Source: Roseomonas sp. E05
GTDB taxonomy: Bacteria > Pseudomonadota > Alphaproteobacteria > Acetobacterales > Acetobacteraceae
Length of the DNA stretch: 64,000 nucleotides
Reading direction: 5' to 3'
Assembly: GCF_030063475.1 (NCBI RefSeq)
Contig: NZ_JASIRT010000009.1
Coordinates: 62,001 to 126,000 of the forward strand
Part shown: piece by piece, positions 9,291 to 40,658 of the stretch
How positions within the stretch are numbered: the stretch's first letter is position 1
Layout: each line of letters begins with the position of its first letter
Notes under the pieces: model-generated
Told to the model about the DNA's origin: nothing
The model's input: only the letters and a program-made list of their open reading frames with translations
Database searches by the model: none
Position numbers and translations under genes: made by a program

Positions 9291-9297
9291 GGCATCC

Positions 9298-26388: not shown

Positions 26389-26396
26389 GTTGCGCG

Positions 26397-26530
26397 CTGG
26401 GAGGCGCTGCCTCCCAGACCCTCCGCCGGGGTGGCAACGGCCACCCCGGACCCCGCGATCAGTTTCGGCAAATGGAAGATCCAGATGCCCCGGGATTCCT
26501 GGCGGTGGGTCCGGGAGGCGAAGCCTCCCG
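26397..26530. repeat. multi-hairpin intergenic repeat between convergent genes, copy 1
   Basis: Three consecutive inverted repeats fill the 160 bp gap between convergent genes: GGGAGGCGCTGCCTCCC (26399-26415), CCGGGGTGGC-AACG-GCCACCCCGG (26426-26449) and CGGGAGGCGAAGCCTCCCG (26512-26530). The first 70 bases are nearly the same as a copy at 44331-44400, again between convergent genes. It looks like a dispersed REP-like element that can act as a bidirectional terminator. Confidence 0.75.
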
Positions 26531-26548
26531 AGCTTCCGGCGTGCGGGA

Positions 26549-27895
26549 CTACGAACTGGCCGCGTAGCGGCTGGGCGGCACCGGGACGCCCAGGTGCTCC
26601 CGCAGCGTGCGGCCGGCATAGTCGGCGCGGAACAGGCCACGCCGCTGCAATTCCGGCACGATGTGCTCGACGATGTCCTCCAGCGGCTTCGGGTAGTAGG
26701 GGAAGAGCAGCATGAAGCCGTCGCAGGCGCCGGCGCGCAGCCATTCCTCCATCACGTCCGCCACCTTCTGCGGCGCGCCCACCAGCAGGTGGTGTCCGAG
26801 CGAGGCGCCGAGATAGCGCGCCACCTGCCGCACGGTCAGGTTCTCGCGCCGGGCCTTGGCGACCAGATGCTCCTGCCGCGCGCGGGCGGCGTTGCTCGGC
26901 GGCAGGTCGGGCAGGGGGCCGTCCAGCGGGAACTGCCGGATGTCGAGGTCGCCGCAGAGCCGGGAGAGCAGGTTCACCGCCGTCTCGTCGTCCACCAGCG
27001 CCTCCAGCGAGCGATAATGCGCCTGCGCGGCTTCCTCGGTGGGGCCGGTGACGATCAGCAGGCCGGGCATGATCTTCACATGGGCGGGGTCGCGGCCATG
27101 CGCGGCGGCACGGGCCTTCACGTCGCGGTAGAAGGCCTGCGCCTCGGCCAGGTCGCTCTGCGCGGTGAAGATCATGTCGGCGACGCGGGAGGCGAGCCGC
27201 TTGCCGGGTTCGGAGGAGCCGGCCTGGGCGATCACCGGGCGGCCCTGCGGGCAGCGCGGCAGGTTCAGCGGGCCGCGTACCCGGAAGTGCTTGCCGATGT
27301 GGTTCAGGATGTGCCCCCTGGCGGGGTCGAGGAACTGGCCGGTCCGCTTGTCGCGCGGGAAGGCGCCTTCGTCGAAGCTGTCCCACAAGCCCGTGGTGAC
27401 GTCGAAGAACTCCTCGGCCCGTTCATAGCGCTCGGCATGGTCGGGGTGGCGGTCGAAGCCGAAATTGCCGGCCTCGTCCTCGATCTGCGAGGTGACGAGG
27501 TTCCAGCCGGCACGCCCGCCGCTGACATGGTCCACCGTGCCGAAGCGGCGGGCCAGGGTATAGGGGTCGCCATAGGTGGTGGTGGCGGTGGCCACCAGGC
27601 CGATATGCGCGGTGACCGGCGCCAGCGCGGCGATCAGCGTCGCCGGCTCCGGGAAGACCTGCCGCGCGGCGGTCGGGCGCCAGGGGCTGCCGCCATGCAG
27701 GGCGGCGCTGCCGTTCACCGCCGCCGTGTCCTGGAAGAAGACGCAGTCCAGCTTGCCGCGCTCGGCGGCCTGCGTCATCGCGACGTAATGCGCGAAGGAC
27801 ATGTCGGTCTCCGGCATGGCGTCGGGATGACGCCAGCCGGCCGAGTGGCTTCCGGGGGTGAAGAAGAAGGCCCCCAGATGCATGGTCGGGCTCAC
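26549..27895 (-). CDS. LLM-class flavin-dependent monooxygenase, NtaA/DszA type
   Basis: A 448-residue bacterial luciferase-like TIM barrel, the usual length for the NtaA/SnaA/DszA family, which uses FMNH2 supplied by a separate reductase. Typical blocks are HLGAFFFTPGSH, DCVFFQDTAAV, TATTTYGDPYTLARRFGTVDH and GGRAGWNLVTSQ, then QAGSSEPGKRLASRVADMIF. Family substrates include nitrilotriacetate, EDTA and sulfur heterocycles. It is the last gene of an 11-gene cluster, overlapping the M20 peptidase gene by 4 bp. No flavin reductase is seen nearby. Oxidation of an imported amide or cyclic compound is plausible. Confidence 0.92.
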   Translation of the reverse strand: MSPTMHLGAFFFTPGSHSAGWRHPDAMPETDMSFAHYVAMTQAAERGKLDCVFFQDTAAVNGSAALHGGSPWRPTAARQVFPEPATLIAALAPVTAHIGLVATATTTYGDPYTLARRFGTVDHVSGGRAGWNLVTSQIEDEAGNFGFDRHPDHAERYERAEEFFDVTTGLWDSFDEGAFPRDKRTGQFLDPARGHILNHIGKHFRVRGPLNLPRCPQGRPVIAQAGSSEPGKRLASRVADMIFTAQSDLAEAQAFYRDVKARAAAHGRDPAHVKIMPGLLIVTGPTEEAAQAHYRSLEALVDDETAVNLLSRLCGDLDIRQFPLDGPLPDLPPSNAARARQEHLVAKARRENLTVRQVARYLGASLGHHLLVGAPQKVADVMEEWLRAGACDGFMLLFPYYPKPLEDIVEHIVPELQRRGLFRADYAGRTLREHLGVPVPPSRYAASS

Positions 27896-29289
27896 CGGCC
27901 GGGCCAGGGCGTCTCGCCCAGGTCCCAGAAGACGCCGGCGGCGATCTCCAGCCCCTCCCGCACCAGCGGGAACAGCGCATGCTCGTTCGGCGCGTGCTGC
28001 GAGCAGCCGCTGTAGGAATGCGGGATGTAGATGGTGGGCAGGCCCAGCGTCACCGCGAAGCTGTCATTCGGCAGCGAGCCGCCGGCATTCGGCACGATCA
28101 TCGGCGCCTTGCCCGTGGTGCGGCGGATGCTCTCCGCCACCAGCCGTGGCCAGGGGCCGTCCGGGTCCATGCGGGTGGCCTTCCACTCGGCGCCCGCCTT
28201 CACCGGCTGCACGGCGACGTCGGTGAAGCCCTGCGCGTCCAGGTGGCGGCGGATGGCGGGGAGGAAGGTTTCCACGTCGCGGTCCACGGTGTAGCGGATC
28301 TGGCAACGGGCGAAGGCCTCGGGCGGCACGGCATTGACCGGCGCCGCAGGGTTGCCGGTGGAATAGGCCAGCACCTCGAAGGTGTTCCAGCCGAACACCT
28401 TCTCGGCGGCGGAGAGGCCCGGCTCGCCCCACCAGGCGTTGATCTCCGGCCCGTCGCTGCCGCCATCCACGCGGCAGTCGGCGAGCGCGCGGCGGACGTT
28501 GTCGGGGATGCGCTCCGGCACGAGGTCGCGCAGCAGCACCTCGCCGGTCGGCCCGACGATGCTGGCGATGGCATGGGCGAGCCGGATGCCGGGATTGGCC
28601 AGCAGCCCGCCCCAGTTGCCGGAATGATGCCCGCCCTCGCGATACTTCACCCGCAGGTCGAAGGCGATGGCGCCGCGCGTGCCGAGGGTCAGGGTCGGCA
28701 CATCGGGCGCCAGGCGCGGGCCATCGGAGGCGATCAGCACGTCGGCCTTCAGCAGGTCGCGCTGCTGCTGGCAGATCTCCTCGATGCCGGGGGAGCCGAC
28801 CTCCTCGCTCATCTCCAGCAGCAGGGTGACGTTGTAGCCGAGCTTGCCGCCGCGCTGCTGGCGCACCGCCTCCATGGCCATCAGGTTGCCGGTGTGCTGG
28901 CCCTTGTTGTCCACGATGCCGCGGCCATAGATCCGCTCGCCGCGCCGGGTCAGCACCCAGGGGGAGAGGCCTTCCTCCCAGCCGTCATCCAGGCCCAGCA
29001 CCGTGTCGCCATGGCCGTAGGTCAGCAGCGTCGGCAGGGAAGGGTCCTCGATGCGGCGGGCGATCAGGAAGGGGCCGCCCTTGCCGGTCGGGTTGTCGAA
29101 GATCCGGCCAGTGAAACCCTGGCGCTCCAGATCCGGCAGGATTTCCTCCGCGAGATAGGCGTGGAGATGCGGGGCGCTCTCCGGGTCCTGGCTGGCAGTC
29201 GGGATGGCGACGCGGCGTGCTATAACCTCCAGATAGGGGCCATCCTCCAGCAGGGCGCGGGCGGCGGCGACGGCGGCTTCACGGGTCAT
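27892..29289 (-). CDS. M20 family metallopeptidase
   Basis: A 465-residue Zn-dependent hydrolase of the M20 family (dipeptidase/carboxypeptidase/deacylase group). Metal and catalytic motifs are complete: His93-x-Asp95 in TYGHGDTVLG, YGRGIVDNKGQH with the bridging Asp, EMSEEVGSPG with the catalytic Glu pair, and a C-terminal His in GCSQHAPNEH. No signal peptide is seen, so it acts on internalised substrate. It overlaps both hyuA (4 bp) and the monooxygenase gene (4 bp). It could cleave the ring-opened product of HyuAB. Confidence 0.92.
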   Translation of the reverse strand: MTREAAVAAARALLEDGPYLEVIARRVAIPTASQDPESAPHLHAYLAEEILPDLERQGFTGRIFDNPTGKGGPFLIARRIEDPSLPTLLTYGHGDTVLGLDDGWEEGLSPWVLTRRGERIYGRGIVDNKGQHTGNLMAMEAVRQQRGGKLGYNVTLLLEMSEEVGSPGIEEICQQQRDLLKADVLIASDGPRLAPDVPTLTLGTRGAIAFDLRVKYREGGHHSGNWGGLLANPGIRLAHAIASIVGPTGEVLLRDLVPERIPDNVRRALADCRVDGGSDGPEINAWWGEPGLSAAEKVFGWNTFEVLAYSTGNPAAPVNAVPPEAFARCQIRYTVDRDVETFLPAIRRHLDAQGFTDVAVQPVKAGAEWKATRMDPDGPWPRLVAESIRRTTGKAPMIVPNAGGSLPNDSFAVTLGLPTIYIPHSYSGCSQHAPNEHALFPLVREGLEIAAGVFWDLGETPWPGR

Positions 29290-31331
29290 GCGGCATTCTC
29301 CTGCCGGCGCAGCACCAGGGCGCCGGAGGCGTCCATCTGCGCCTCCCAGCCGGGCGGCACCAGGGTCGTGGCGTCGAGTTGGGTGACGATGGCGGGGCCG
29401 GCGAAGTGGTCGCCGGCCCCGAGGGCTGCGCGGTCGTAGAGCGCCGCCTCCCGCGTGCCGCTGGCGAAATGCACGGTGTGGTGGCCCATCGGCGCCGCGC
29501 CGCGTCCGGGTGGCAGCGGGGCGGTGATGGTGCCGCTGAGCTGGCCAACCGCCTCCAGCCGCAGCGTCACCAGCTCCGCGGTGCCCTCCGGCAGGTCGAA
29601 GCCGTAGAGCGCCTTGTGCTGCGCGGCGAAGGCGGCGGCGGCGGCGGACATGCCGCCGGGCCAGGGCACGGCCAACTCGCCGCCCTGGCCGGCATAGCGC
29701 ATCAGCGCCACCCGGTGCGTCTCGCGGCGGGCGGGGGGAACCTGCTCCTCGGCGAACCAGGCGGCGGCCTCCTCCTCCAGCGCGGCATAGCCGGCCTCCA
29801 CCACCTCGGGTGTGGCGTCGGATAGGCTGCGGCTGAACTCGGCCTTGAGGTCGGCGGCGAGCAGGCCCTGGGCGCAGAGCACGCCAGGGGAGGGCGGCAC
29901 CAGCACGGCGCGGATGCCAAGCAGATCGGCCAGCGCACAGCCATGCAGCGGCCCGGCACCGCCGAAGGGCACCAGCGCGAAGTCGCGCGGATCATGCCCG
30001 CGCTCCACCGAGACGACGCGCACCGCGCCGACCATGTTGGAATCGGCGATGGCCAGGATGCCACGCGCGGCGGCGTGCAGGTCGAGGCCGAGCGGCGTGG
30101 CGACGTTGTCCTGCACCGCCTGCCGCGCGGCGGGGACGTCGAGCGTCATGCGGCCGCCGAGCAGGCTGGGCGGGAGATGGCCGAGCGCCACATGCGCGTC
30201 GGTGACGGTGGCGCGGGTGCCGCCGCGCCCGTAGCAGGCCGGGCCGGGGACCGCGTCGGCGCTTTCCGGGCCGACCGCCAGCGCGCCCGCCGCCGTGACG
30301 CGCGCCAGCGAGCCGCCGCCGGCGCCGATCGTCACCATGTCCACCATCGGCAGCGGCAGTGGCCAGTCGCCGATATGGCCGGTCTGGGTCAGGCGGATCT
30401 CGCCGCCCTTCATCAGGCAGATATCGGCGCTGGTGCCGCCGATATCGACGGTGATGATGTCGGGGAAGCCGGCCGCTGCCGCGATGGCGCGCGCGCCCAC
30501 CACGCCGGCGGCCGGGCCGGAGAGCGCCGTGACGGCGGGGGCGCGGCGGATGGCGGCGGCGCCGGCCACGCCGCCATTGCTCTTCATCAGCAGCAGCGGC
30601 GCCGCGACGCCCTCGCCCTCCAGCCGCTCCTCCAGCCGCTGCACATAGGTGGAGACGGCCGGCATCACCTGCGCGTTCAGGATGGTGGCCAGCGAGCGCT
30701 CGTATTCCCGCACCACCGGCAGCACGTCGGAGGAGGCGGTGACGGCGACACCCGGCAGCGCCGCGCGCAGCATCTCCGCCACCCGCCGCTCATGCTCCGG
30801 GGCGGTGAAGGCGTGCAGCAGGCAGACGGCGACCGCGGAGACGCCGGCGGCGCGGCAGGCCTCGGCGGCAGCGCGCACCGTAGCCTCGTCCAGCGGCACC
30901 AGCACCTCGCCCTGGGCGGAGACGCGCTCCGTCACCTCGAAGACGCGGGCGGGCGGCACCGGGCGCTCGGGCTTCACCCAGGCATGCAGGTTGACGCGGC
31001 GGGGGATGTCCTGCCGGCCGATGTCGAGCACATGGCGGAAGCCGGCCGTGGTGACCAGCGCCGCCTTCGCGCCCTTGCCCTCCAGGATCATGTTGGTGGC
31101 GACGGTGGTGCCGTGCAGCACGCGGCCGACGCCCGAGGCGGCGCCCTCGGCGGCCTCCAGCGCCAGGCGCACGCCGGTCAGGAAGGCTTCCGAGGGATCG
31201 TGCGGGGTGGAGGGCGTCTTGGCGGTCCAGGCGCGGCCGCTGGCGGTGTCCTGGATGGTGATGTCGGTGAAGGTGCCGCCGATATCCACCGCGATGGACC
31301 AGGGGCGCGCCAAGGCGTCAGTCGAGGACAT
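29286..31331 (-). CDS. hyuA: hydantoinase A / oxoprolinase A subunit (second set)
   Basis: A 681-residue HyuA with phosphate loop AVDIGGTFTDITIQD, second block IITVDIGGTSADICLM, ALSGPAAGVVGARA and LVPFGGAGPLHGCALADLLG. The start at 31331 has GGGAG 8 bases upstream and overlaps the end of hyuB by 14 bp; a start 90 codons further up is not supported. Gene order is reversed relative to the set at 13-17 kb (here hyuB precedes hyuA). Neighbouring M20 peptidases suggest sequential opening of a cyclic amide and cleavage of the resulting amino-acid derivative. Confidence 0.93.
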   Translation of the reverse strand: MSSTDALARPWSIAVDIGGTFTDITIQDTASGRAWTAKTPSTPHDPSEAFLTGVRLALEAAEGAASGVGRVLHGTTVATNMILEGKGAKAALVTTAGFRHVLDIGRQDIPRRVNLHAWVKPERPVPPARVFEVTERVSAQGEVLVPLDEATVRAAAEACRAAGVSAVAVCLLHAFTAPEHERRVAEMLRAALPGVAVTASSDVLPVVREYERSLATILNAQVMPAVSTYVQRLEERLEGEGVAAPLLLMKSNGGVAGAAAIRRAPAVTALSGPAAGVVGARAIAAAAGFPDIITVDIGGTSADICLMKGGEIRLTQTGHIGDWPLPLPMVDMVTIGAGGGSLARVTAAGALAVGPESADAVPGPACYGRGGTRATVTDAHVALGHLPPSLLGGRMTLDVPAARQAVQDNVATPLGLDLHAAARGILAIADSNMVGAVRVVSVERGHDPRDFALVPFGGAGPLHGCALADLLGIRAVLVPPSPGVLCAQGLLAADLKAEFSRSLSDATPEVVEAGYAALEEEAAAWFAEEQVPPARRETHRVALMRYAGQGGELAVPWPGGMSAAAAAFAAQHKALYGFDLPEGTAELVTLRLEAVGQLSGTITAPLPPGRGAAPMGHHTVHFASGTREAALYDRAALGAGDHFAGPAIVTQLDATTLVPPGWEAQMDASGALVLRRQENAA

Positions 31332-33096
31332 GCGCATAACTCCCGCGATGGAATTCCTTTGCCGCCGGGCGATCGGCCCGCAGGCCTTCGGTGGCAGCGG
31401 CATCCACGGCGCCCTCCCGCACCGCCACGCCATAGTCGCGCGCTGCGGCATCCATGCTGACGAAGCCGCCCAGCACGTCGGCCAGCACCGCCTCGGCCGG
31501 CCGGTCGAAGGGATGTCCGCGCCCGCCGCCGCCGCCGGTCTCGATGCGCAGGATATCGCCGCGCACCAGCCGGTTACCGTCCGAGAGCGGTCGCAGCACA
31601 CGCTCCTGCGGCGTGCCGGGATTGACGGTGACGCGCCCGGGCCGGCCGGACATGCCGCCGCCCGCGCCCCAGGGCGGGTTCTCCACGCCGTCGATGCGGA
31701 TGGCCATGACGGCCTCCTCGGCCATCACCTCGTATTCGCGCACGATGCCGCAGCCGCCGCGCCAGCGCCCCGGCCCGCCGCTGTCGGCATGAATGCCGTA
31801 GCGCCGCATCCGTACCGGATATTCCTGCTCCAGGAACTCGACGGGGTAGTTCTCCTGCGCGACGAAATAGACGGCGTCGATGCCGTCCGCGAAGGCGCGG
31901 GCGCCGTAGCCGACGCCGATGCCGTCGCTCATCAGGAAGGGCTTGCCGCCCGCCGTGCCGCGCAGCAGCATGATGACATAGGCCGCATGCGCCGCCGGAG
32001 CCTCGCCGCCGGCCACCGAGACCAGCCCGTTCAGCGCCGCCAACACGCGCATCATGGTCAGGCCGCGCATGCCCAGCGCCGCCGGGAAGCGCGGCTGCAC
32101 CAGCGAGCCCTCGCGCAGCCGCACCTCGTCGAGCGCGCGCGGGCCGCCGGCATTGACCACCTGGGCCGCCTCGCCGCCGAGGAAATAGAGGCCGAGCGCC
32201 ATGCCCGGCACGTCCGGGTTCATCAGGAAGTTGACGGGGCCGACCGACTGGTCGTCCGTTTCCGTCGCGTCCAGGATGAAGCGGTCGTCGGGCGTGCGGG
32301 TCAGGGCGAAGCGGATGCGCAGCGGCCCGGAGCCATGGCCGTCGCCGTCGATGCGATCGGTGAAGCGCCAGGTGCCGACGGGGAAGGTCTGCTTCAGCCG
32401 TTCGCGCACCGTCTCGCGCGTGCGCTCAAAGAGCTGGCGCAGCGCGTCGGCCAGCACCTCGGCGCCGAAGCGGCCGGCGATCTCCGCCATGCGGGCGACG
32501 CCCAGTTCCACGCTGGCCATCAGCGCCCGCGTGTCGCCCTGCGCCGCGCGCGGGAAGCGGGAGTTGCGGTAGAAGATATCGAGCGCCGCCTCGTTGATCG
32601 TGCCGGCCGCGATCAGCTTCGTCGGCGGCACGATGATGCCTTCCTGGAAGATGTCGGTGGCGTCCGGCGAGATGGAGCCGGGGCGCAGTCCGCCGATATC
32701 GGCGAAATGCGCCCAGCCCATGACGAAGGCAACGCGCCGGCCCGCGTGGAAGACCGGCGCCAGGAAGACCTGGTCGTTGGAGTGGCTGACGGCGCCGCGC
32801 GAGCCGTAGCAGTCGTTGTACCAGTAGAGGTCGCCGGGCTGCATCGTGTCCGGCGCGAATTTGCGGAAGACGGGGCCACAGATGTCGCCGAAGACCGGCA
32901 CGTTGGAGCCCACCGCCATGACGCCCTCGGCGTCGAAGAGGGCGGTGTAGAAATCCTTCTTCTCGCGGATGAAGGCGGACATGGCGGTGCGCTCGATCAG
33001 CGCCTCCATCTCCGCCTGGGCGGCGCGGATGGCGCCGCGCACGATCTCCAGCGTGACCGGGTCGCAGAGCCGCGCCGGCGGGGCGAAGTCGGTCAC
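31318..33096 (-). CDS. hyuB: hydantoinase B / oxoprolinase B subunit (second set)
   Basis: A 592-residue HyuB, about 50 residues longer than the copy at 13 kb. Blocks are CDPVTLEIVRGAIRAAQAEM, GDLYWYNDCYGSRGAVSHSN, the helical PVNFLMNPDVPGMALGLY region and DSGGPGRWRGGCGIVREYEV. It begins 4 bp inside the end of the M20 peptidase gene. The YNDCYGSRG variant of the family NDPYxGG motif is notable and is one clear difference from the first HyuB. Confidence 0.92.
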   Translation of the reverse strand: MTDFAPPARLCDPVTLEIVRGAIRAAQAEMEALIERTAMSAFIREKKDFYTALFDAEGVMAVGSNVPVFGDICGPVFRKFAPDTMQPGDLYWYNDCYGSRGAVSHSNDQVFLAPVFHAGRRVAFVMGWAHFADIGGLRPGSISPDATDIFQEGIIVPPTKLIAAGTINEAALDIFYRNSRFPRAAQGDTRALMASVELGVARMAEIAGRFGAEVLADALRQLFERTRETVRERLKQTFPVGTWRFTDRIDGDGHGSGPLRIRFALTRTPDDRFILDATETDDQSVGPVNFLMNPDVPGMALGLYFLGGEAAQVVNAGGPRALDEVRLREGSLVQPRFPAALGMRGLTMMRVLAALNGLVSVAGGEAPAAHAAYVIMLLRGTAGGKPFLMSDGIGVGYGARAFADGIDAVYFVAQENYPVEFLEQEYPVRMRRYGIHADSGGPGRWRGGCGIVREYEVMAEEAVMAIRIDGVENPPWGAGGGMSGRPGRVTVNPGTPQERVLRPLSDGNRLVRGDILRIETGGGGGRGHPFDRPAEAVLADVLGGFVSMDAAARDYGVAVREGAVDAAATEGLRADRPAAKEFHRGSYAHVLD

Positions 33097-34235
33097 GCGA
33101 GGGTCTCCATCAGCCGCAGCATCAGCCGCGCGCGCGGCACCAGGGACGAGATGTTGATCTGCTCGTAGAGGGTATGGCCGCCCTTGCCGTCCACGCCGAG
33201 GCCGTCCAGCGTCGGCACGCCGAGGGCGGCGGTGAAATTGCCATCCGAGCCGCCGCCGGTCTTCAGATCCTGCAGCTCGAAGCCGATCTCGGCGGCGAGG
33301 CCGCGCGCATGCTCGAAGAGTTGGGCGATGGCGGGCGACTTCTCGTAGCCCGGGCGGTTCAGGCCGCCGGTGATCTCCAGCGTCACGTCGGGGTCATAGG
33401 GCTTGAGGGCCAGCACGCGTTCGATGGCGGGGTTGCCGATCTCCTGGTTCGGCACGCGCATGTCGATCTCGGCCCAGGCGTGATCGGCCACGACATTGGC
33501 GCGGGTGCCGCCGCCGACATGGCCGACATTGACCGTGACGCCGGTCGTGTAGTCGGTCATGGCCTCAAGGTCGAGAATCTGCCGTGCCAGTTCCTTCACC
33601 GCACTGCGCCCATCCTGGTGGCGCGAGCCGGAATGTGCGGCCTGGCCACGGATTTTCAGGTCGAAGCGCGCCGTGCCCTTGCGCGCGGTGACGATGCGGC
33701 CGCCCTCCCGCGCTGGCTCCGTCACCAGCACGTAGCGCGCCCGCCGCGCCTCGCGCTCGATGTGCTCCCGCGAGGTATGGCTGCCGACCTCCTCATCGGA
33801 GACAAAGAGGTGGCGCACCGGCAGCGGCGTGCGCTGGCCGCCGCGGATCAGGTGGCGCAGCGCCGCGAGCGCGATCAGCGCGCCGCCCTTCATGTCGTAG
33901 ATGCCGGGACCATAGGCGAGGTCGCCCTCTACCTTGAAGGGAAGAGGGCCTTCCAACGTGCCCAGGCCATGCACCGTGTCGAGATGGCTCAGCACCAGGA
34001 TGCCCGGCTCGTCCTCCTCGCCCCAGGGCGAGCTGACCAGCAGATGGCCCCCATAGCCGTCGCGGCCAGGGATGCGGGCGATGCGGGCGCCGGCCGCCTC
34101 AGCATCGGCGGCGGCCTTGTCCATGACGCGATCGACGGCGGCGGCGTCGGTGGTCGGGCTCTCGATCTCGACCCAGGCGCGGATCTCCTCCAGCAGCTCC
34201 TCGGCCACGAAGGGCGGGGTGTTGGCGTGGCTCAT
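33093..34235 (-). CDS. M20 family peptidase, glutamate carboxypeptidase-like
   Basis: A 380-residue M20 peptidase with His84-x-Asp86 in LSHLDTVHG, YGPGIYDMKGGALIAL, VSDEEVGSHTSRE and a dimerisation-domain stretch GQAAHSGSRHQDGRSAVKEL. Length and motifs fit the CPG2/ArgE-like branch, which removes C-terminal Glu or other acyl groups. Cytoplasmic. It lies 28 bp after the IclR gene and overlaps hyuB by 4 bp. It is distinct from the 465-residue M20 enzyme of the same cluster. Confidence 0.92.
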   Translation of the reverse strand: MSHANTPPFVAEELLEEIRAWVEIESPTTDAAAVDRVMDKAAADAEAAGARIARIPGRDGYGGHLLVSSPWGEEDEPGILVLSHLDTVHGLGTLEGPLPFKVEGDLAYGPGIYDMKGGALIALAALRHLIRGGQRTPLPVRHLFVSDEEVGSHTSREHIEREARRARYVLVTEPAREGGRIVTARKGTARFDLKIRGQAAHSGSRHQDGRSAVKELARQILDLEAMTDYTTGVTVNVGHVGGGTRANVVADHAWAEIDMRVPNQEIGNPAIERVLALKPYDPDVTLEITGGLNRPGYEKSPAIAQLFEHARGLAAEIGFELQDLKTGGGSDGNFTAALGVPTLDGLGVDGKGGHTLYEQINISSLVPRARLMLRLMETLA

Positions 34236-34263
34236 TGGTGCGTGCTCCGGTCAGGCAAGGGGA

Positions 34264-35028
34264 TCATGCGGCGGCCTCCTGCCAGCCGAGGCGAGCGGAA
34301 ATCTCGCCGGCGGCATTCAGCAGCATGCGGACATAGAGACGCTCAAGGTCGTCGGTCAGCCGCGACTGCGGCCCGGCAACGGAGAGCGAGGCGACGACGC
34401 GGCCCAGATGGTCGCGCACCGGTGCGGCGATGGAGAAGGCGCCGGCATCCTGGTCGCCATGGCTGATGTTGTAATCCTGCGCGCGGATGCGTTCGAGCAG
34501 TGTGCGCAGCTGCTCCCCGTCGGTGATGGTCTCCGGCGTGAAGCGCTCCAGTGGGCCGGCGGCAACGGCGGCCTGCACATCCTCCGGCGCGAAGGCGAGC
34601 AGCAGCTTCGGGCCGCCGCCGACATGCAGCGGCCCTTGCCGCCCAAGCTCGGCATAAAGGCGGATCGGTTGCGGCGACTGGCGAATGCCGATGCAGACGG
34701 ATTGCCGTCCATCACGCACCAGCAGCGAGACATTCTCCCGCGTGCGCGCCACCAGGTCGTCCAGCACCGGGTTGGCGACGCGCAGCAGTGGCATCTGGTG
34801 CTGCATCTTCTCAGCCAGGAGCAGCGGCTTGTGACCGAGCGTGTAGCCGCGCGTCTCCTCGTCCTTCAGCAGGTAGCCGCGTGCTTCCAGGGTCGAGGCC
34901 ATGCGGAAGGCCAGTGTCTTGGTGCTGCCGGTCAGCCGCGCCAGCTCGCTGAGGCCGACACCGGGATGGGCGGCCACCGCCTCCAGCAAGGCCAGGGCGC
35001 GGTCCACCGCCGCGATCGTATAGTCCAT
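34264..35028 (-). CDS. IclR family regulator embedded in the transporter/HyuAB cluster
   Basis: A 254-residue regulator: winged helix (VDRALALLEAVAAHPGVGLSE, LARLTGSTKTLAFRMASTLE) and IclR effector domain (LHVGGGPKLLLAFAPED, ISHGDQDAGAFSIAAPV, SLSVAGPQSRL). The start at 35028 has GAGG upstream. It sits 38 bp after the DppF-type ATPase gene and 28 bp before the M20 gene, so it is probably made from the same transcript it regulates, giving feedback. No promoter-like gap surrounds it. Confidence 0.9.
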   Translation of the reverse strand: MDYTIAAVDRALALLEAVAAHPGVGLSELARLTGSTKTLAFRMASTLEARGYLLKDEETRGYTLGHKPLLLAEKMQHQMPLLRVANPVLDDLVARTRENVSLLVRDGRQSVCIGIRQSPQPIRLYAELGRQGPLHVGGGPKLLLAFAPEDVQAAVAAGPLERFTPETITDGEQLRTLLERIRAQDYNISHGDQDAGAFSIAAPVRDHLGRVVASLSVAGPQSRLTDDLERLYVRMLLNAAGEISARLGWQEAAA

Positions 35029-35066
35029 GGCGTCATCCTCAGCTCTTCTTCCTTGTGGTTCCCGCA

Positions 35067-36062
35067 TCAGGTGGTGTGCAGGTGGCAGGCCACGCGGTGG
35101 CCGGGGGCGATTTCGGCCAGCGGGGGGGTCTCGGCGGCGCAGCGGTCGAAAGCATGCGGGCAGCGGTTGCGCAGGCGGCAGCCGGTGGCGAGGCTGGCGG
35201 CATCGCCCAGCGCGCCGTGCAGTGGCAGCGCGTCACGTGGCTGGTCCACATAAGGGCGCGGCACCGCGCGGATCAACGCGCGGGTATAGGGATGCGCCGG
35301 TTTCGCGATGATCTGCGCCGTCGGTCCGTCCTCAACCACCTTTCCCAGATACATCACCAGTGTCCGCTCGCAAACATAGCGGACCAGCGTGAGGTCGTGC
35401 GAGATGGCTAACGTTGTCAGGCCCAGCGTGTCGCGCAACTCGCGCAGCAGGTTCAGGATGCCCGCGCGCACGGAGACATCGAGCATCGAGACCGGCTCGT
35501 CCGCCACCAGGAAGCGTGGGCGCAGCACCAGCGCCCGCGCCAGCACGACGCGCTGCAACTGGCCGCCGGAGAGCTGGTGCGGCATCCGCTCCAGCACGCG
35601 CGCCGGGTCGCCCAGATGCACGTGGCGCAGGCTCTCCGCTACACGGTCGGCATGCTCCACCTTCGGCACGCCGGTGTTGGAGAGCGGCTCGGTCAGGGTG
35701 CGGCCGATACTGAAGCGCGGGTTCAACGCGTCGAAAGGGTTCTGGAAGACAAGCTGCGCCCGCTGGCGGAAGCGCAACGTCGCGCTGCGGCTCAGGCGGC
35801 CGAGATCCTCGCCCTCGAAGGCGACCTGGCCGGCGCTCGGCTCGGTCAGCTTCAGCAGCAGGCGGCCGATGGTGGTCTTGCCGCTGCCGGATTCGCCGAC
35901 GAGGCCGACGCTCTCGCCGGGGCGCAGCGCCAGGTCCACGCCGTCCACGGCGCGCAGCACCGGGCGCTCACCGCGCAGCGCCTGCCGAAGGCTGCGGCCG
36001 ACCGGGTAGTGCTTGGTCAGCCCATAGGCGGCGACCAGCGGCTGCTCCAGGGTCGTGCTCAT
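35067..36062 (-). CDS. peptide-type ABC transporter ATP-binding protein, DppF/OppF type
   Basis: A 331-residue ATPase with Walker A GESGSGKTT, signature LSGGQLQRVVLARAL, Walker B FLVADEPVSMLD and the C-terminal Cys-rich oligopeptide motif (GCRLRNRCPHAFDRC) typical of Opp/Dpp ATPases, some of which bind an Fe-S cluster there. The start overlaps the DppD gene by 4 bp. It is the second of two ATPases of the importer. Confidence 0.93.
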   Translation of the reverse strand: MSTTLEQPLVAAYGLTKHYPVGRSLRQALRGERPVLRAVDGVDLALRPGESVGLVGESGSGKTTIGRLLLKLTEPSAGQVAFEGEDLGRLSRSATLRFRQRAQLVFQNPFDALNPRFSIGRTLTEPLSNTGVPKVEHADRVAESLRHVHLGDPARVLERMPHQLSGGQLQRVVLARALVLRPRFLVADEPVSMLDVSVRAGILNLLRELRDTLGLTTLAISHDLTLVRYVCERTLVMYLGKVVEDGPTAQIIAKPAHPYTRALIRAVPRPYVDQPRDALPLHGALGDAASLATGCRLRNRCPHAFDRCAAETPPLAEIAPGHRVACHLHTT

Positions 36063-37078
36063 GCCGCCGCCTCCGCCACGTCGCGCCAGGTCAGGGGGTC
36101 GCGCGCCCGCTGCCGCAGGGCAGCAGCTTCCGGCGCGCGGTGGCAGGCGGACCAGTGATCCGGCGCCAGCGTCACGGGCGGCGGCACCTCACGGGTGCAG
36201 ATGGCCTCGGCGAAGGGGCAGCGCGGCGCGAAGCGGCAGCCGGGCGGCGGGTCTGACAGTGGCGGCGGTGAGCCCTCGATCGGCGCCAGCACCGCCTCGT
36301 CGCTCTCCAGGTCGGGGAAGGCGTTCATCAGGCCCATGGTGTAGGGGTGGGAGGGCTGCTCCAGCACAGCGTCCGTGGGGCCATGCTCGACCACACGGCC
36401 GGCATACATCACCGCCACCTGGTCGCAGAGATAGGCGACGACGCTGATGTCATGCGTGACGATGATGGCGGAGAGGCCAAGCTCGGCGCTGAGGCTGCGG
36501 AAGGTGTCCAGCACCTGCCGCTGTACGATGACGTCGAGCGCCGTTACCGGCTCGTCGGCGATGACGAGCTTCGGGCGGAGCGCCAGCGCCAGGGCGATGG
36601 CGGCGCGCTGGCGCATGCCGCCGCTGAACTGGTGCGGATAGTCGGCCAGCCGGCGTGGGTGCAGACCCACCGCCTCGAACAGTTCCGCCGCGCGCATGTC
36701 AGCTTCGGCGCGGGAGAGCCCGCCGCGATCACACAGCACCTCGCGCATCTGGTCGCGCAGGCGATAGACGGGGTCGAGCGCACTCATCGCCGTCTGCGGC
36801 ACGAAGGCGAGGTCGCGCCACAGCCGCGCGCGGCGCTCGGCCGGGGCGAGGGCGACGAGGTCCGTGCCGTCCAGCCGCGCCTCGCCACGGGTGATGCGGG
36901 CGCCGCCGGGCAATACGCCCATCAGCGCGCGCGCCAGCGTGGTCTTGCCGCAGCCGGACTCGCCGACCAGGCCAAGCATGCCGCCGCGCCGGAGGGTGAG
37001 GTTGGCGCCGTCCACCGCATGGACCGTGCCATTGGCATAGGCGACGGCGAGGTCGCGCACCGCGAGCAGTTCCGTCAC
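36059..37078 (-). CDS. peptide-type ABC transporter ATP-binding protein, DppD/OppD type, GTG start
   Basis: A 339-residue ATPase: Walker [10 protein letters not shown], signature [15 protein letters not shown], Walker [13 protein letters not shown] and C-terminal oligo-peptide motif [15 protein letters not shown]. The GTG at 37078 is chosen because it overlaps the preceding permease stop as GTGA and has GAGGG seven bases upstream; a longer upstream frame runs deep into the permease gene and is not coding. Confidence 0.92.
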
Positions 37079-38001
37079 TTGTCGTCCCTCAGCTTGGGGA
37101 AGAGCAGGTCCTCGTAGCCGCGGCTGACCAGGAAGCCAGCGAGCACCACCAGCACGATGCAGAGGCCTGCCGGCATGAACCAGAAGAACTGGCCGCGATC
37201 GAGCGCCTGCGAGGCGTAGGCATCCTGCAGCATGGTGCCCCAGGAGATGGCAGAGCTGTCGCCGAAGCCGAGAAAGGCGATGCTGGCCTGGGTCAGGATG
37301 GCCCAGCCTACCGCGAAGGCGCCGTAGAGCGCCGAGAAGGGCAGCACACTTGGTGCCACATGCACGAAGAGAATGCGCCACTCTCCGGCGCCGGTGACGC
37401 GCGCCGCCTCCACGAACTGCCGCTGCGACAGCGTCAGCACCTGGCTGCGGATGACGCGTGCCGCATTCGGCCAGAGCATGATGGCGACGGCGAGGACGAT
37501 GTTGTGCAGGTCGGGCCCCAGCAGCGCCGTGACGACGATGACGAAGGGCAGGAAGGGCAGGCCCAGCACGATGTCGGTCAGGCGCATCAGGAGCTGATCG
37601 GCCCAGCCGCCGAAATAGCCGGCCAGCAGGCCGACCACGGTACCTATGGAGGCCACCGCCACCGCCGCCGAGAGGCCGACGATCAGCGAGGGGCGCGTGC
37701 CCATCACGAGCTGCGAGAAGATGTCGCGGCCGAGATTGGTGGTGCCGAGCCAGTGATCCGACCCCGGCGGCAGCGAGGCGGCGAGGCCGCCTTCCGGCGT
37801 GAACAGGATTTCCATCGGGTCATAGGGCGCCAGCCACTCGGCAGTAAGGCCGACAACCAGGAAGACGACATAGATGGAGATGCCCGCCAGCGCGTAAGGA
37901 TCGCGCAGCAGATGGCGCGCGAAAGCCGACCAGGCGCCGCGGCGCGGGGCGACAGGGAGGGAGGGTGCGGCCGGTGCCGCGCGGGCTTCAGCCACGGCCA
38001 T
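37075..38001 (-). CDS. peptide-type ABC transporter permease, DppC type
   Basis: A 308-residue permease with a basic N-terminal tail, a first helix near YALAGISIYVVFLVVGLTAE, a periplasmic segment GSDHWLGTTNLGRDIFSQL typical of DppC proteins, and the EAA loop in FVEAARVTGAGEWRILFVHV. It overlaps DppB by 14 bp and DppD by 4 bp. Confidence 0.93.
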   Translation of the reverse strand: MAVAEARAAPAAPSLPVAPRRGAWSAFARHLLRDPYALAGISIYVVFLVVGLTAEWLAPYDPMEILFTPEGGLAASLPPGSDHWLGTTNLGRDIFSQLVMGTRPSLIVGLSAAVAVASIGTVVGLLAGYFGGWADQLLMRLTDIVLGLPFLPFVIVVTALLGPDLHNIVLAVAIMLWPNAARVIRSQVLTLSQRQFVEAARVTGAGEWRILFVHVAPSVLPFSALYGAFAVGWAILTQASIAFLGFGDSSAISWGTMLQDAYASQALDRGQFFWFMPAGLCIVLVVLAGFLVSRGYEDLLFPKLRDDK

Positions 38002-38962
38002 GAGCCACCCGCGGGTCCAGCAGGCCGTAGAGCAGATCGGCCAGGAAGTTCATCAGCACCAACACGAAGGCAATCAGCAGGAAGGCGCATTGCGCCAGGG
38101 GATAGTCGCTGTTGGCAATGGCATCGGCCAGCAGCCGACCCAGGCCGGGCCAGCTGAACACGTTCTCCACCACCACATTGCCCCCGACCGACTGGCCGAA
38201 GCCCAGTGCGAAGGCGGTGACCAGCGGCAGCAAGGCGTTGCGCGCAGCATGCCGGAGCATGATGGCACGCTCGGAGAGTCCCTTCATGCGGGCCATGGTG
38301 ACGAACTCCTCCTGCATCACCTCCAGCATGGAGGAGCGCATCAGCAGCGCCGGGAGGCCCTGCAGATAAATGGCCAGCGTCAGCGCCGGCAGTGCCAGGT
38401 GACGGAGATAGTCGAGGGACAGGATGCGGTCCCATTCCGACGTATATTGCGCACCGGCCGTGTTCGCGCCGCCGGAGGGTAGCCAGCCCAGGCCGAAGGC
38501 GAAGATCGCCAGCATCACCATGCCGACCCAGAACTCCGGCGCCGCGCGCGTCGTCAGCACCAGGGGGACGCTGACCGCCTCGAACCGGCCGCCACGATTC
38601 CAGGCCATCAATGCGCCGAGCAGGGTGCCGAAGGCATAGGCGATGAGCAGCGCCGTCAGCGTCAGCAGCAGCGTATTCGGCAGCACGTCCAGCACCATGC
38701 CGATCACCGGCTGGCGCTGGCGGAAGGAGAGGCCGAATTCGCCACGCGCCAGATTGCCCAGATAGATCAGGTACTGTTCCGGCAAAGGCCGGTCGAGGCC
38801 GAACTGGGCGCGGATCTCCTGCTGTTGCTCCACCGTGAAGGTGGGGTCGATGAAGGCGGCGCTGGGATCGCCGGGCATCAGCCGGAACATCAGAAAGACG
38901 ATGGTGGCGACCGCCCAGAGCACGAAGGCCATGTGCAGCAGGCGACGGATCAGGTAGGGCAT
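37988..38962 (-). CDS. peptide-type ABC transporter permease, DppB type
   Basis: A 324-residue permease. MPYLIRRLLHMAFVLWAV at the N-terminus and FRLMPGDPSAAF are DppB hallmarks, with FGLDRPLPEQYLIYLGNL and the EAA-type loop FVTMARMKGLSERAIMLRHA. It lies 10 bp after the receptor gene. Confidence 0.93.
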   Translation of the reverse strand: MPYLIRRLLHMAFVLWAVATIVFLMFRLMPGDPSAAFIDPTFTVEQQQEIRAQFGLDRPLPEQYLIYLGNLARGEFGLSFRQRQPVIGMVLDVLPNTLLLTLTALLIAYAFGTLLGALMAWNRGGRFEAVSVPLVLTTRAAPEFWVGMVMLAIFAFGLGWLPSGGANTAGAQYTSEWDRILSLDYLRHLALPALTLAIYLQGLPALLMRSSMLEVMQEEFVTMARMKGLSERAIMLRHAARNALLPLVTAFALGFGQSVGGNVVVENVFSWPGLGRLLADAIANSDYPLAQCAFLLIAFVLVLMNFLADLLYGLLDPRVAHGRG

Positions 38963-38972
38963 GGCTCCGGCC

Positions 38973-40658
38973 TCAGGCGCCCTCCAGGGTTTCCTTCACG
39001 CCTTCAGGGTAGTGCAGCTTGCCACGAACGACGACATAGCCGGCCTCCTCCAGGATCTTCTTGGCTTCGGCCATGTCCATCTTCAGGTCGTTGATGCCGG
39101 GCTTGCTCCAGTAGGGCAGGGCGGGCGAGACGAAGGAGTTGGCTGGCGTGGCGAAACCGTTCCAGGCGGCGGCGGCCATCAGTTGGCGGTTGATGGAGAG
39201 CGAGAGGGCACGCCGGAAGCGGGCATCATCGAAGGGCTGGCGGCGCTCGTTCGGGGCGACGAAGCGGAAGCCCATGTCGGTGGTCGCCACCACGGTGATG
39301 TTCGGGTTGTTCCTCGCCATGTCGGTCAGCAGCTTCGGGTCACCCCGGTAGTCGGTCAGGAAGTTGATCTCGCCGCGCGGAAGCATGCCCAGTGCCGCGC
39401 CGGTGTTGGTGATGACCCGCAGGATCCAGCGGTCCATCTTCGGCTTCTCCCAGTGGTCCGGGTTGGCCTCCAGGACGATCTCCTCATTCAGCTTGAAGCG
39501 GGCGACCCGGAAGGGGCCGGAGCCGACCGGCTGTTCCTCCTGCACCGTCTCCGCGTTCTCCGGCTTGCCCGCCAAACCCGCCAGAATCGGCTCCCAGACA
39601 TGCTTCGGGACAAGATTGATCTTGGCGAGGGTGGAGGTGGTGAAGGCGGCGCTTGGCGTCTTCAGCACGAAACGGACGGTGCGGTCATCGGTGGCCTTGA
39701 CCGAGGCGATGTTGGCCACGAAGGGCTTGTACATCGGCGACTTGTCGCTGGTCGCCGGCGCCTCGAAGGAGAAGACCACGTCCTCCACCGTCACCGGCTT
39801 GCCGTCATGCCATTTCTGGCCGGGGCGCAGCACGACGTCGAGGGTGGTGGGATCAACCTGCGTGACCTTCTCCGCCGCCCAGGGCTCGGGCAGGCCATCG
39901 GGGCCGACGCGCATCAGCCGGTCCCAGACCAGTTCGGTTACCCAGCTGTCGATGGCACCGCTGATGTAGAGCGGGTTGATGGCAATCATCGATTCGGCGG
40001 CGTTGCAGATCATGTCGCGCTTGGCGCCGGCCGGCTCGGCGCGCAGGAAGGTCCAGAAGCAGCGGATGCCGATGCCGCTCTGCTCGACCACGCTCTCCGG
40101 CTTCCAGACGCTCTTGTCGAAGGCAAGCACGTTCTTCGGATAGACCAGGAAGAGATAGGGCTGGTCGCGGTTGATGACGTCCTGCGCCTCGTAGAGGAGT
40201 TCGCGACGCTTCTCCCGGCTGGTCTCGGCGCGCTGCGCCTGGGCGATCTTCTGGAAGTCTGGATTGTTGTAGGCGATGAAGTTGTAGCCGGTCTCGATGG
40301 TGGCCGGATTGTAGAGGTTGAAGGTGAACTCGTCCGGGTCGCTGCGCTCGGGGCGGCCGACCATGCGCCACATGGTCATGTCCCACTTGCTGCGGTTGTT
40401 CCAGACAACATCCGAAAGCTGCGGCCGCGGCAGGCCACGTACCTCCACATCCAGGCCAAGCTGGCGCCAGGATTGGGCGATCAGCTGCGCGGCCTGGAAT
40501 TCCTGTGGATCGCTTGCCTGCGCGGCGCAGAGCAGGGTGAGCTTGCGGACCTTGTCGCCCGGGGTTGCTGCCCAGGCGGGCGCGGGAGCGATCGTGGGGA
40601 GCAGCGAAAGCGCGGAGCTGGCGAGCAAGGCACGGCGCGAGAGCGTGGTGGCGGTCAC
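38973..40658 (-). CDS. peptide-type ABC transporter substrate-binding protein, DppA/OppA family
   Basis: A 561-residue receptor. The signal peptide contains SRRALLASSALSLLP with an Arg pair (possibly Tat) and ends near AWAATPG. The lobe contains VLRPGQKWHDGKPVTVEDVVF, the family signature, and DDARFRRALSLSINRQLM. It is first gene of the 11-gene - strand cluster; the 281 bp gap upstream separates it from the divergent M28 pair. The ligand is unknown, but neighbours suggest a peptide-like or cyclic amide compound. Confidence 0.91.
   Translation of the reverse strand: MTATTLSRRALLASSALSLLPTIAPAPAWAATPGDKVRKLTLLCAAQASDPQEFQAAQLIAQSWRQLGLDVEVRGLPRPQLSDVVWNNRSKWDMTMWRMVGRPERSDPDEFTFNLYNPATIETGYNFIAYNNPDFQKIAQAQRAETSREKRRELLYEAQDVINRDQPYLFLVYPKNVLAFDKSVWKPESVVEQSGIGIRCFWTFLRAEPAGAKRDMICNAAESMIAINPLYISGAIDSWVTELVWDRLMRVGPDGLPEPWAAEKVTQVDPTTLDVVLRPGQKWHDGKPVTVEDVVFSFEAPATSDKSPMYKPFVANIASVKATDDRTVRFVLKTPSAAFTTSTLAKINLVPKHVWEPILAGLAGKPENAETVQEEQPVGSGPFRVARFKLNEEIVLEANPDHWEKPKMDRWILRVITNTGAALGMLPRGEINFLTDYRGDPKLLTDMARNNPNITVVATTDMGFRFVAPNERRQPFDDARFRRALSLSINRQLMAAAAWNGFATPANSFVSPALPYWSKPGINDLKMDMAEAKKILEEAGYVVVRGKLHYPEGVKETLEGA

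Follow-up and report, generated by a model that had tools for sequence, protein, structure and literature searches.

Thirteen-gene importer, HyuAB, M20 and M28 locus of Roseomonas sp. E05, probably for catabolism of a small cyclic, peptide-like compound

The ATP-dependent lactamases CapAB, N-methylhydantoinase and HyuAB are two-subunit enzymes: the A subunit carries the ATP phosphate motifs and the B subunit an Asp-His-Asp-His metal site, and the Cap genes lie in the order capB-capA (cited sections of PMC8453981). According to the same sections, hyuABC of Pseudomonas sp. NS671 joins HyuA and HyuB to a third hydrolase (PMC8453981). In Bacillus subtilis, the S-alkylcysteine clusters scm (yxe), yha and ytn combine a monooxygenase gene with genes for an acetyltransferase and an M20 deacetylase of N-acetylcysteine (cited part of PMC12757645). 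The succinamopine region of pTiEU6 contains HyuAB near importer and asparaginase genes, and its hydantoinase/oxoprolinase A and B proteins were proposed to open lactam opines; it differs from the locus described here in its importer types, its opine dehydrogenase genes and its LysR regulators, and the genes described in the cited part of that report include no M20, M28 or NtaA (PMC6733357).

In the window (the whole stretch of 64,000 nucleotides that was analysed), HyuB and HyuA occur in the same B-A order within a larger gene set. Compared with the ATP-dependent lactamases, this locus adds a peptide importer and M20 and M28 hydrolases, and the HyuA of this strain has Asp in place of Gly in its adenosine motif. 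It differs from the Bacillus clusters, which presumably also include importer genes, in having HyuAB, M28a and M28b, a Dpp-type importer and M20 enzymes of different subfamilies, and in the absence of an acetyltransferase. Compared with hyuABC, whose HyuC we take to be an M20-type enzyme of the carbamoylase type (TIGR01879), neither M20 enzyme has a carbamoylase model among its 25 best, and an importer, NtaA and M28 proteins are added. Keyword searches in an open-access library agreed with the sequence-only reading that no pathway with this combination is described, although the Bacillus S-alkylcysteine pathways are partly similar. We regard the locus as a so far undescribed variant of amide-catabolic operons that are already known, its M28 component being unusual.

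Gene content and layout

Eleven genes follow one another in the same direction on the minus strand between 26549 and 40658, in the order DppABCDF-IclR-M20a-HyuB-HyuA-M20b-NtaA.

38973..40658, minus strand: DppA-type substrate-binding protein (SBP_bac_5, Pfam PF00496), GTG start
37988..38962, minus strand: DppB-type permease (NCBIfam Opp/Nik/Dpp B models, below cut-offs)
37075..38001, minus strand: DppC-type permease (NCBIfam Opp4C and others, below cut-offs)
36059..37078, minus strand: DppD-type ATPase (ABC_tran and oligo_HPY)
35067..36062, minus strand: DppF-type ATPase (NCBIfam PRK11308, 312 bits; cut-off 408)
34264..35067, minus strand: IclR-family regulator (IclR_C and HTH_IclR), start at 35067 or 35028
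33093..34235, minus strand: M20a, M20 metallohydrolase, carboxypeptidase G2-like (PRK07473, 405.5 bits; cut-off 386)
31318..33096, minus strand: HyuB, Hydantoinase_B subunit (PF02538), CapB metal-ligand positions kept
29286..31331, minus strand: HyuA, Hydantoinase_A ATP-binding subunit (PF05378/PF01968/PF19278)
27892..29289, minus strand: M20b, M20 hydrolase of the PRK07079 subfamily (673.9 bits; cut-off 330)
26549..27895, minus strand: NtaA/DmoA-family FMN-dependent monooxygenase (TIGR03860, 535.8 bits; cut-off 279.7)

All eleven genes named in the sequence-only reading were found on this strand, with Pfam and NCBIfam profiles assigning the same families, and the ORF coordinates bear out its description of mostly 4- or 14-bp overlaps and no gap above 38 bp. 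Seven of the ten junctions are such overlaps: 14 bp at DppB-DppC and, with the HyuA start at 31331, at HyuB-HyuA (20 bp with 31337), and 4 bp at DppC-DppD, DppD-DppF, M20a-HyuB, HyuA-M20b and M20b-NtaA. Gaps of 10 and 28 bp separate DppA from DppB and IclR from M20a, and the DppF-IclR junction is a gap of 38 bp if IclR starts at 35028 or an overlap of 1 bp if it starts at 35067. The gene order is more than chance, since it recurs in full in three other species, and co-transcription of the run may be inferred. The DppD start was corrected from the mechanical 37381 to 37078, and that of HyuA from 31601 to 31331 or 31337, since the longer reading frame runs into TGA in some relatives; in the rejected reading of 771 residues, the first 90 overlap HyuB in another frame.

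The Dpp/Opp importer set is complete, with an SBP_bac_5 receptor, two permeases and two oligo-type ATPases, and the profile matches of these components support the peptide-type importer proposed before. DppA has a signal-like N-terminus, as judged by eye, and matches NCBIfam models only far below their cut-offs.

The boundary drawn earlier at 26549-40658 was correct for the eleven genes but too narrow, as a divergent M28 pair at 40940-44328 belongs to the locus. The unit is thirteen genes, the eleven-gene operon and this pair, with candidate regulator sites between them.

40714..40726, minus strand: candidate regulator site GAAACACCGGTTT, DppA side
40896..40908, plus strand: candidate regulator site GAAACATCGGTTC, M28a side
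40940..42676, plus strand: M28a, GCPII/transferrin-receptor-like M28-fold protein (PF04389), GHS replacing the catalytic EE
42673..44328, plus strand: M28b, M28-fold paralog with 34% identity to M28a (PF04389), same GHS motif

M28a and M28b overlap by 4 bp, and their adjacency to DppA together with the promoter motif pair led us to reject the view that they are unrelated neighbours. The motif has only these two exact copies in the 5.73-Mb genome; the pattern was built from the two sites themselves, and its support is that no further exact copies exist and that it is partly conserved in congeners. Copies with one mismatch number six, compared with four for a backward control. A looser form was absent from 21 of 22 M28a-DppA intervals at loci without an IclR match (L090 has one) and from both L130 and L131, which carry an IclR of 53% identity; L131 has sites with two mismatches.

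A consensus scan of 26300-41200 gave no promoter of the sigma-70 type, where shuffled sequence would give 0.6, and six terminator-like matches, all within genes, where 3.6 would be expected. A tRNA scan of the whole window found none. Elsewhere in the window, a second HyuAB pair is followed by ABC importer genes (7900-17039).

Predicted properties of the encoded proteins

By homology (Pfam), HyuA is a member of the ATP-dependent lactamase/hydantoinase/oxoprolinase family. Its phosphate motifs, which in this family follow the patterns DxGGTxxD and D[VIM]GGT, are present in every aligned row (DIGGTF/DVGGTF and DIGGTSAD, 71/71 each), and all four Asp-His-Asp-His metal positions of HyuB are kept in the alignment with 6yra_B (KDFYTA in 65/70, SH[ST]ND in 66/70 and AHFxDxGG in 67/70 rows). 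These match the phosphate motifs of CapA and the metal motifs of CapB given in the cited sections of PMC8453981, and the kept metal site supports the ATP-dependent amidohydrolase predicted earlier. In the window copy only, the GxxPGP adenosine motif is altered: the sequence reads SADAVPGP, with Asp359 (codon 30255-30257) at a position that is Gly in the other 70 of 71 HyuA rows. The orthologs of Pseudoroseomonas coralli and Roseomonas marmotae have Gly here. Because of this departure, HyuA may be weakened in this strain. The closest solved relative of HyuA is named N-methylhydantoinase (498 bits). Caprolactamase proper was ruled out by curated NCBIfam cut-offs, as the CapA/CapB equivalogs NF050156/NF050157 gave scores of 498.8 and 212.2 bits, where each cut-off is 1000.

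The two M20 hydrolases proposed before both look intact in sequence. M20a has CPG2 (1cg2) as its closest PDB match, and M20b matches Sso-CP2 and carnosinase-type structures, which makes it dipeptidase/carboxypeptidase-like. The HxDTV motif occurs in 6/6 rows of M20a and 12/12 rows of M20b. Further M20 patterns were matched in 3/6 and 5/6 rows of M20a and in 10/12 and 6/12 rows of M20b; we judged these patterns too narrow, since the alignments of both proteins show the Asp-x-Lys-Gly and Glu-Glu segments to be conserved. The carbamoylase model TIGR01879 was not among the best 25 of 30 families for M20a or the best 25 of 48 for M20b. On plasmids of Nitratireductor and Methylobacterium, a non-orthologous M20 follows HyuA; its best model is the PRK08201 dipeptidase (389 and 376 bits, below the curated cut-off of 441), and both proteins pass PRK09104, an unnamed M20 subfamily (335 and 349 against 327).

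The monooxygenase lies above the TIGR03860 cut-off, in agreement with its earlier assignment to the NtaA family, and its closest solved relative is YtnJ (1yw1, 375.8 bits). No gene of the cluster was recognised as a flavin reductase, and a keyword search of the open-access literature for the names YtnJ/CmoJ returned no paper. In the NtaA tree, one clade has 12/12 rows from HyuA-bearing loci (support 100/100) and another has 11/11 (support 100/99). Thus, by this tree, a single HyuAB clade has two NtaA lineages linked to it; the tree was built from 30 of 149 matches in ten genomes and from matches of at least 380 residues within the fetched regions, and unsampled NtaA genes could break these clades.

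M28a is predicted to have the fold of GCPII and the transferrin receptor (peptidase family M28), based on PF04389 and on a Foldseek comparison of its model (TM 0.61-0.70 by query length, rmsd 6.8-10, over most of the length; E 1e-22 to 1e-19 among the 50 matches listed). In contrast to GCPII, alignments of M28a and M28b have His-Ser at the catalytic Glu-Glu positions, and GHS was found at 38/38 of the M28a/b places listed, two of which were entered twice. We take the replaced pair to be E424/E425 of GCPII, the catalytic base and a metal ligand. The His, Asp, Asp and His positions, presumably the other metal ligands, are kept. The AlphaFold model predicted for M28a from 6 sequences (mean pLDDT 69.6, against 47.6-56.7 for the other four models) is informative for the fold and not for the geometry of the His-Ser centre, as stretches 294-303, 325-339, 363-389 and 397-419 fall below 50 pLDDT. 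Not every M28-like protein beside HyuAB is of the GHS type: one near a related HyuAB in Acuticoccus (L215; 32% identity to M28b) reads AHETG. In Deinococcus, M28a adjoins peptide-type importer genes near a membrane dipeptidase. The GHS-type M28 family spans Alphaproteobacteria to Deinococcus, with most metal-ligand positions kept and the Glu pair replaced, and it poses a question separate from the pathway of the operon.

Distribution and modularity

The whole eleven-gene set is present in three congeners, in two of them on plasmids, and its order is identical in four species. It is therefore conserved beyond this strain, on which the sequence-only reading had made its proposal depend. The core of the set recurs in other Alphaproteobacteria. 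A Ketogulonicigenium vulgare plasmid carries the importer, two HyuAB pairs, M20a, M20b, M28a and an IclR, with no NtaA within the 25 kb read. At 21 of 24 related loci, M28a stands next to DppA in divergent orientation. The gene immediately ahead of HyuB encodes a Dpp-type ATPase at 54 of 70 loci; at 31 of these 54, where an importer ATPase is adjacent, the importer belongs to another type. Related clusters occur on plasmids of the nodule bacteria Neorhizobium galegae and Microvirga ossetica, and related plasmids also come from seawater and from a tick isolate.

Within the same HyuAB clade, relatives of M28a/b lie near HyuA at 21 of 75 loci, compared with none of 20 paralogous HyuA control loci; the corresponding counts are 15 and 0 for M20a/b and 20 and 2 for the NtaA family, in a comparison that omits a HyuA group of 57% identity (L140-L147) and the window's own locus, includes 24 loci (of 75) shorter than 15 kb, uses hand-picked control loci and counts loci that are related by descent and so not independent. 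IclR relatives were found at 4 of the 75. One locus (L209) combines M20a, M20b, M28b and NtaA without HyuAB. Judging from these gene contents, IclR, M20a, M20b and NtaA are variable parts of a modular set. These four are missing from most clade loci, and M20a, M20b, M28b and NtaA occur together in L209 without HyuAB, so the genes are not bound to work in a single linear pathway. The proposal of a single conserved unit is supported, with the qualification that the set is modular. NtaA was also rejected as a core part of the set, being found at only 20 of the 75 orthologous loci.

Proposed pathway and rival explanations

The cluster probably serves the uptake of a small ring-shaped, peptide-like compound, the ATP-dependent opening of its ring and its breakdown as food. 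Our best reading, with a probability of about 0.5, is that two divergent transcripts catabolise a peptide-derived cyclic amide, perhaps a diketopiperazine. The Dpp-type importer would take up such a lactam or cyclic dipeptide, perhaps S- or N-alkylated; HyuA would activate the ring amide with ATP, and HyuB would hydrolyse the activated amide at its metal site. M20b (dipeptidase-like) and M20a (carboxypeptidase G2-like) would split the opened product, resembling a dipeptide or N-acyl amino acid. NtaA could cleave a substituent at a C-S or C-N bond with FMNH2 and O2, as YtnJ-type enzymes do, using a flavin reductase supplied from elsewhere, and M28a/M28b may perform a further step without the canonical M28 Glu base. 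IclR would control both promoters. The earlier tally of two amide cleavages and one oxidation was not borne out, as neither reaction order nor substrate can be derived from sequence. A bolder version, in which a diketopiperazine-type pathway is spread by plasmids, M28a/M28b are a new His-Ser enzyme type and NtaA was recruited twice, is speculative and rather unlikely. If true, it would provide the genes, missing so far, for a bacterial route of diketopiperazine degradation, with GCPII-like His-Ser M28 proteins acting together with HyuAB on a ring-opened or ring-bearing substrate and NtaA-type monooxygenases stripping substituents. The operon, plasmid-borne in several hosts, is a concrete testable candidate that joins an importer to a putative ATP-dependent ring opener and to enzymes resembling dipeptidases.

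HyuAB might instead open a 5-substituted hydantoin or ureide-like ring to an N-carbamoyl amino acid, which an M20 enzyme would decarbamoylate. The likeness to hyuABC, the N-methylhydantoinase relative of HyuA, PF01177 Asp/Glu/hydantoin racemase genes at the Nitratireductor, Acuticoccus and Roseomonas haemaphysalidis loci, and a carbamoylase/allantoate-amidohydrolase-type M20 near a related HyuAB-free cluster (L204) point this way. However, the subfamilies of M20a and M20b, the absence of TIGR01879 from the 25 best families of either, the lack of any racemase among the assigned ORFs of the cluster, and the failure of the related-locus racemases to match any hydantoin-racemase equivalog make this unlikely. 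The ergothioneine/hydantoin-propionate route is another alternative considered for the cluster; an ErtE-type M20 model reached 274 of 520 bits, only on a neighbour of a HyuAB-free cluster. Salvage of sulfur or cysteine from cysteine peptides that are S-alkylated, N-blocked or carry a lactam overlaps with our best reading: NtaA would cut C-S as in Bacillus and an M20 would free cysteine from the N-acyl product, with HyuAB in place of the N-acetylation/deacetylation cycle. The kinship of NtaA with YtnJ, the gene content of the Bacillus clusters and a TIGR01891 M20, presumably of the family of the Bacillus deacetylases, that adjoins NtaA and M28b in L209 are consistent with it. The ORFs assigned to the cluster include no acetyltransferase, M20a and M20b belong to other subfamilies, and the restriction of NtaA to a minority of clade loci makes sulfur release improbable as a shared purpose; on the whole, we regard sulfur salvage as quite unlikely.

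The cluster could also be a catabolic island in which independent amide-degrading modules are stacked without one shared substrate. The modules do occur apart (L204, L209 and L135), importers before HyuB are often of another type, and the window holds a second HyuAB pair with ABC importer genes; the tight gene overlaps, the identical order in four species, the shared promoter motif pair and the two NtaA clades tied to one HyuAB clade speak against this explanation, which we consider very unlikely. Catabolism of lactam opines or similar rhizosphere compounds made by plants or microbes, as suggested for the HyuAB of pTiEU6, would fit the plasmids of nodule bacteria; it appears the faintest prospect, given the seawater and tick origins of other plasmids and the lack of any opine dehydrogenase or oxidase among the assigned cluster ORFs.

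A further receptor gene lies beside the cluster, convergent with it and of uncertain membership.

24820..26388, plus strand: neighbouring SBP_bac_5 receptor (PF00496)

In the same genome, a paralog of this receptor with 52% identity adjoins IclR and M28b genes (G000:C10).

Gene layout and a candidate operator

The window lies on a contig of 187,764 bases in a 5.73-Mb draft genome. The sequence-only reading had described eleven minus-strand genes at 26549-40658 in the order DppA-B-C-D-F (receptor, two permeases and two ATPases), IclR, M20a, HyuB, HyuA, M20b and NtaA, and this order was borne out. The tight junctions it reported also hold, as seven of the ten overlap by 4 or 14 bp once the starts of HyuA and DppD are corrected, and its statement that no gap exceeds 38 bp is accurate if IclR starts at 35028, the widest gap then being 38 bp. 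A consensus scan of the cluster detected no sigma-70-like promoter and six terminator-like matches, each within a gene. While the gene set stands, its proposed boundary does not: two paralogous M28-fold genes on the opposite strand widen the unit.

40940-42676, plus strand, M28a, diverging from DppA
42673-44328, plus strand, M28b, overlapping M28a by 4 bp; the pair diverges from DppA

The DppA-M28a intergenic region (281 bp) contains two conserved blocks, one by each gene, both of which are GAAACAYCGGTTY in opposite orientation. The whole genome has two exact copies of this sequence, both in this interval; with one mismatch permitted, it has six more, versus four for a backward control. Both sites are kept in Pseudoroseomonas coralli. 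Compared with GAAACANCGGTTY, the sites of Roseomonas marmotae have 0 and 1 mismatch, genome G141 has two sites upstream of DppA with 1 mismatch each, and R. haemaphysalidis has one site with 1 mismatch and one with 2. The same interval of locus L131, with an IclR of 53% identity, contains related sites that differ by two mismatches. A looser scan found no site in the corresponding interval of locus L130, although this locus has IclR, and the looser motif form is missing from 21 of the 22 intervals of loci without an IclR match. We infer that IclR binds at these paired candidate sites.

Conservation and gene associations

A search for the whole set, as the sequence-only reading had proposed, recovered all eleven genes at identities of at least 70% in P. 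coralli, R. haemaphysalidis and R. marmotae (3 of 16 same-genus genomes). A fourth congener (G011) combines HyuAB and M20b with a different importer and a different NtaA. The closest named relative at the locus is P. coralli M0104 (HyuA, 95%); contig C5 of R. marmotae is plasmid p1318-4, and contig C2 of R. haemaphysalidis is plasmid p546-1. Of 397 genomes from the family, 76 had HyuA matches (E ≤ 1e-200, own genome included). A first sample of 58 genomes had an identity gap, from 66% down to 49%, that set HyuA orthologs apart from paralogs. The larger sample contains a further group at 56-58% identity, partly within the same genomes.

In all 70 loci read wholly or partly, HyuB comes first and HyuA follows on its strand, and a Dpp-type ATPase gene lies immediately before HyuB in 54 of them (23 of the window's importer type and 31 of another). 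M28a is divergent next to DppA in 21 of the 24 loci with the window's DppA type, the remainder being G141, G059 and G230 (a short contig). Related clusters were also seen in three further alphaproteobacterial families. L130 (genome G442) is ordered M28a< >DppABCDF-IclR-M28a-HyuB-HyuB-HyuA, and L131 (G628) follows this order as far as the second HyuB, where its contig stops, with M20b past the first M28a. The cluster of G520 is on two contigs, with Dpp-M28a-HyuB-HyuB-HyuA on one and M28a and M20b on the other. Two HyuB genes and an M28a inside the operon are shared by L130, L131 and L133, all in other alphaproteobacterial families, and one HyuA follows the double HyuB in L130 and L133.

Plasmid versions of the set occur in Ketogulonicigenium vulgare (IclR-M20b-M20a-HyuA-HyuB <M28a> DppABCDF-HyuB-HyuA-M20), Neorhizobium galegae and Nitratireductor. 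HyuB matched 15 of 72,556 plasmid records (E ≤ 1e-100) and M28a matched 40 (E ≤ 1e-40), Deinococcus and haloarchaea among them. M28a is scarce in the genome samples (E ≤ 1e-40, in 5 of 385 genomes at class level and 3 of 398 at phylum level, each count including the own genome). The copy on N. galegae plasmid pNgVX (L212) may be broken or misread, because HyuB, DppA and DppB each match as two pieces and HyuB has no gene annotation.

The 75 orthologous HyuA loci were compared with 20 paralogous ones, ten from the own genome and ten from relatives. M28a/b was found at 21 versus 0 loci, M20a/b at 15 versus 0, NtaA-family genes at 20 versus 2, DppB at 57 versus 4 and IclR at 4 versus 0, counts that are non-independent because the loci share descent. 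Locus L209 has M28b, M20a, M20b and NtaA together without HyuAB within the 20 kb read, and L204 likewise has DppABCDF, M28b and two NtaA genes without HyuAB. A TIGR01891 amidohydrolase is present in L209, and a carbamoylase-type M20 lies near the L204 cluster.

NtaA-family genes are abundant (6 to 42 per genome, 149 in ten genomes). A tree of 48 rows contains two clades made up solely of genes from HyuA loci. The first has 12 rows of 12 from such loci (support 100/100), and its genes lie past the importer's far end in 11 of 12 loci, the G022 gene instead standing ahead of HyuB, next to an M20 gene. The second (support 100/99) has 11 rows, among them L154, the window's own gene, and L055, which comes from a HyuA locus; the members of this clade lie immediately after HyuA or after M20b. 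Therefore, two NtaA lineages were coupled to one HyuAB clade. The second NtaA of G141, also from a HyuA locus, groups with neither. On the R. haemaphysalidis plasmid (L218), an Asp/Glu/hydantoin racemase family gene (18662-19294) directly follows NtaA, and a flavin reductase gene (1221-1892), a possible NtaA partner, is on the other side of M28a.

The M28 pair and the other enzymes

In M28 peptidases, one residue of an adjacent Glu-Glu pair is the general base and the other a metal ligand. An alignment with a NAALADase-like protein and a bacterial aminopeptidase shows His-Ser at this place in M28a and M28b; PDB titles name the E424A and E424M mutants of GCPII as inactive. The resulting GHS motif is present at all 38 M28a/b places listed, two of them entered twice, and the copies from Ketogulonicigenium, Neorhizobium, Nitratireductor and Deinococcus share it; the sole exception seen is a more distant M28-like protein of Acuticoccus. 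In an alignment of six, the positions of His, Asp, Asp and His are retained. Therefore, M28a and M28b are conserved proteins that keep a metal-site-like set, yet are not canonical peptidases. The predicted M28a model (moderate confidence) matches GCPII and the transferrin receptor along most of its length, with TM scores of 0.61-0.70 by query length among the 50 matches listed. This GHS-type pair is the least explained component of the unit.

HyuA and HyuB belong by homology to the ATP-dependent lactamase family and retain the phosphate and metal motifs described for caprolactamase (PMC8453981). The window's HyuA reads SADAVPGP, with Asp359 (codon 30255-30257, minus strand) in the GxxPGP adenosine motif; it is the only one of 71 rows without Gly there. 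The change may be tolerated, may mark a loss confined to this strain or may stem from a sequencing error. M20a resembles CPG2 and exceeds the PRK07473 cut-off, and M20b is well above the PRK07079 cut-off and similar to Sso-CP2 and carnosinase-type dipeptidases. The closest solved relative of NtaA is YtnJ. According to PMC12757645, the Bacillus yha, ytn and scm clusters combine a monooxygenase and an M20 deacetylase with an acetyltransferase, whereas no acetyltransferase was found among the ORFs assigned to the window's cluster.

Substrate, novelty and neighboring genes

The importer class, the M20 genes that Nitratireductor and Methylobacterium have after HyuA (PRK08201 dipeptidase as the best model, 389 and 376 bits, under the cut-off of 441) and the Deinococcus neighbors of M28a (peptide-type importer genes and a membrane dipeptidase) point to a peptide-derived amide as the substrate. 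In the simplest chemistry, a ring would be opened to a dipeptide-like product, which a dipeptidase would then cleave. NtaA is optional across loci, and its most plausible role is the removal of a substituent. Hydantoins stay the main rival substrate because PF01177 racemase-family genes are present in three related loci.

Every enzyme class in the cluster is already known. The sequence-only reading knew of no described pathway with this combination, and keyword searches of one open-access library met none in the papers they listed, nor any paper joining "M28 family peptidase" with "hydantoinase". We class the cluster among amide-catabolic operons, as a variant with a GHS-type M28 pair.

Other features of the window are as follows.

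7900-17039, minus strand, second HyuA-HyuB pair (13321-17039), then genes of an ABC importer that has an NMT1-type receptor
22796-26388, plus strand, genes for a DHDPS-family protein, an IclR regulator and an SBP_bac_5 receptor, converging on the NtaA end
44408-48155, minus strand, molybdenum hydroxylase with three subunits (xanthine dehydrogenase/aldehyde oxidoreductase type), convergent to M28b
62473-63867, plus strand, TcuA-type tricarballylate dehydrogenase flavoprotein (683 versus a curated cut-off of 369 bits)

The own genome has 13 Hydantoinase_A matches in total, one of them partial. Its contig C10 carries a 52% paralog of the SBP_bac_5 receptor of 22796-26388, beside IclR and M28b genes.
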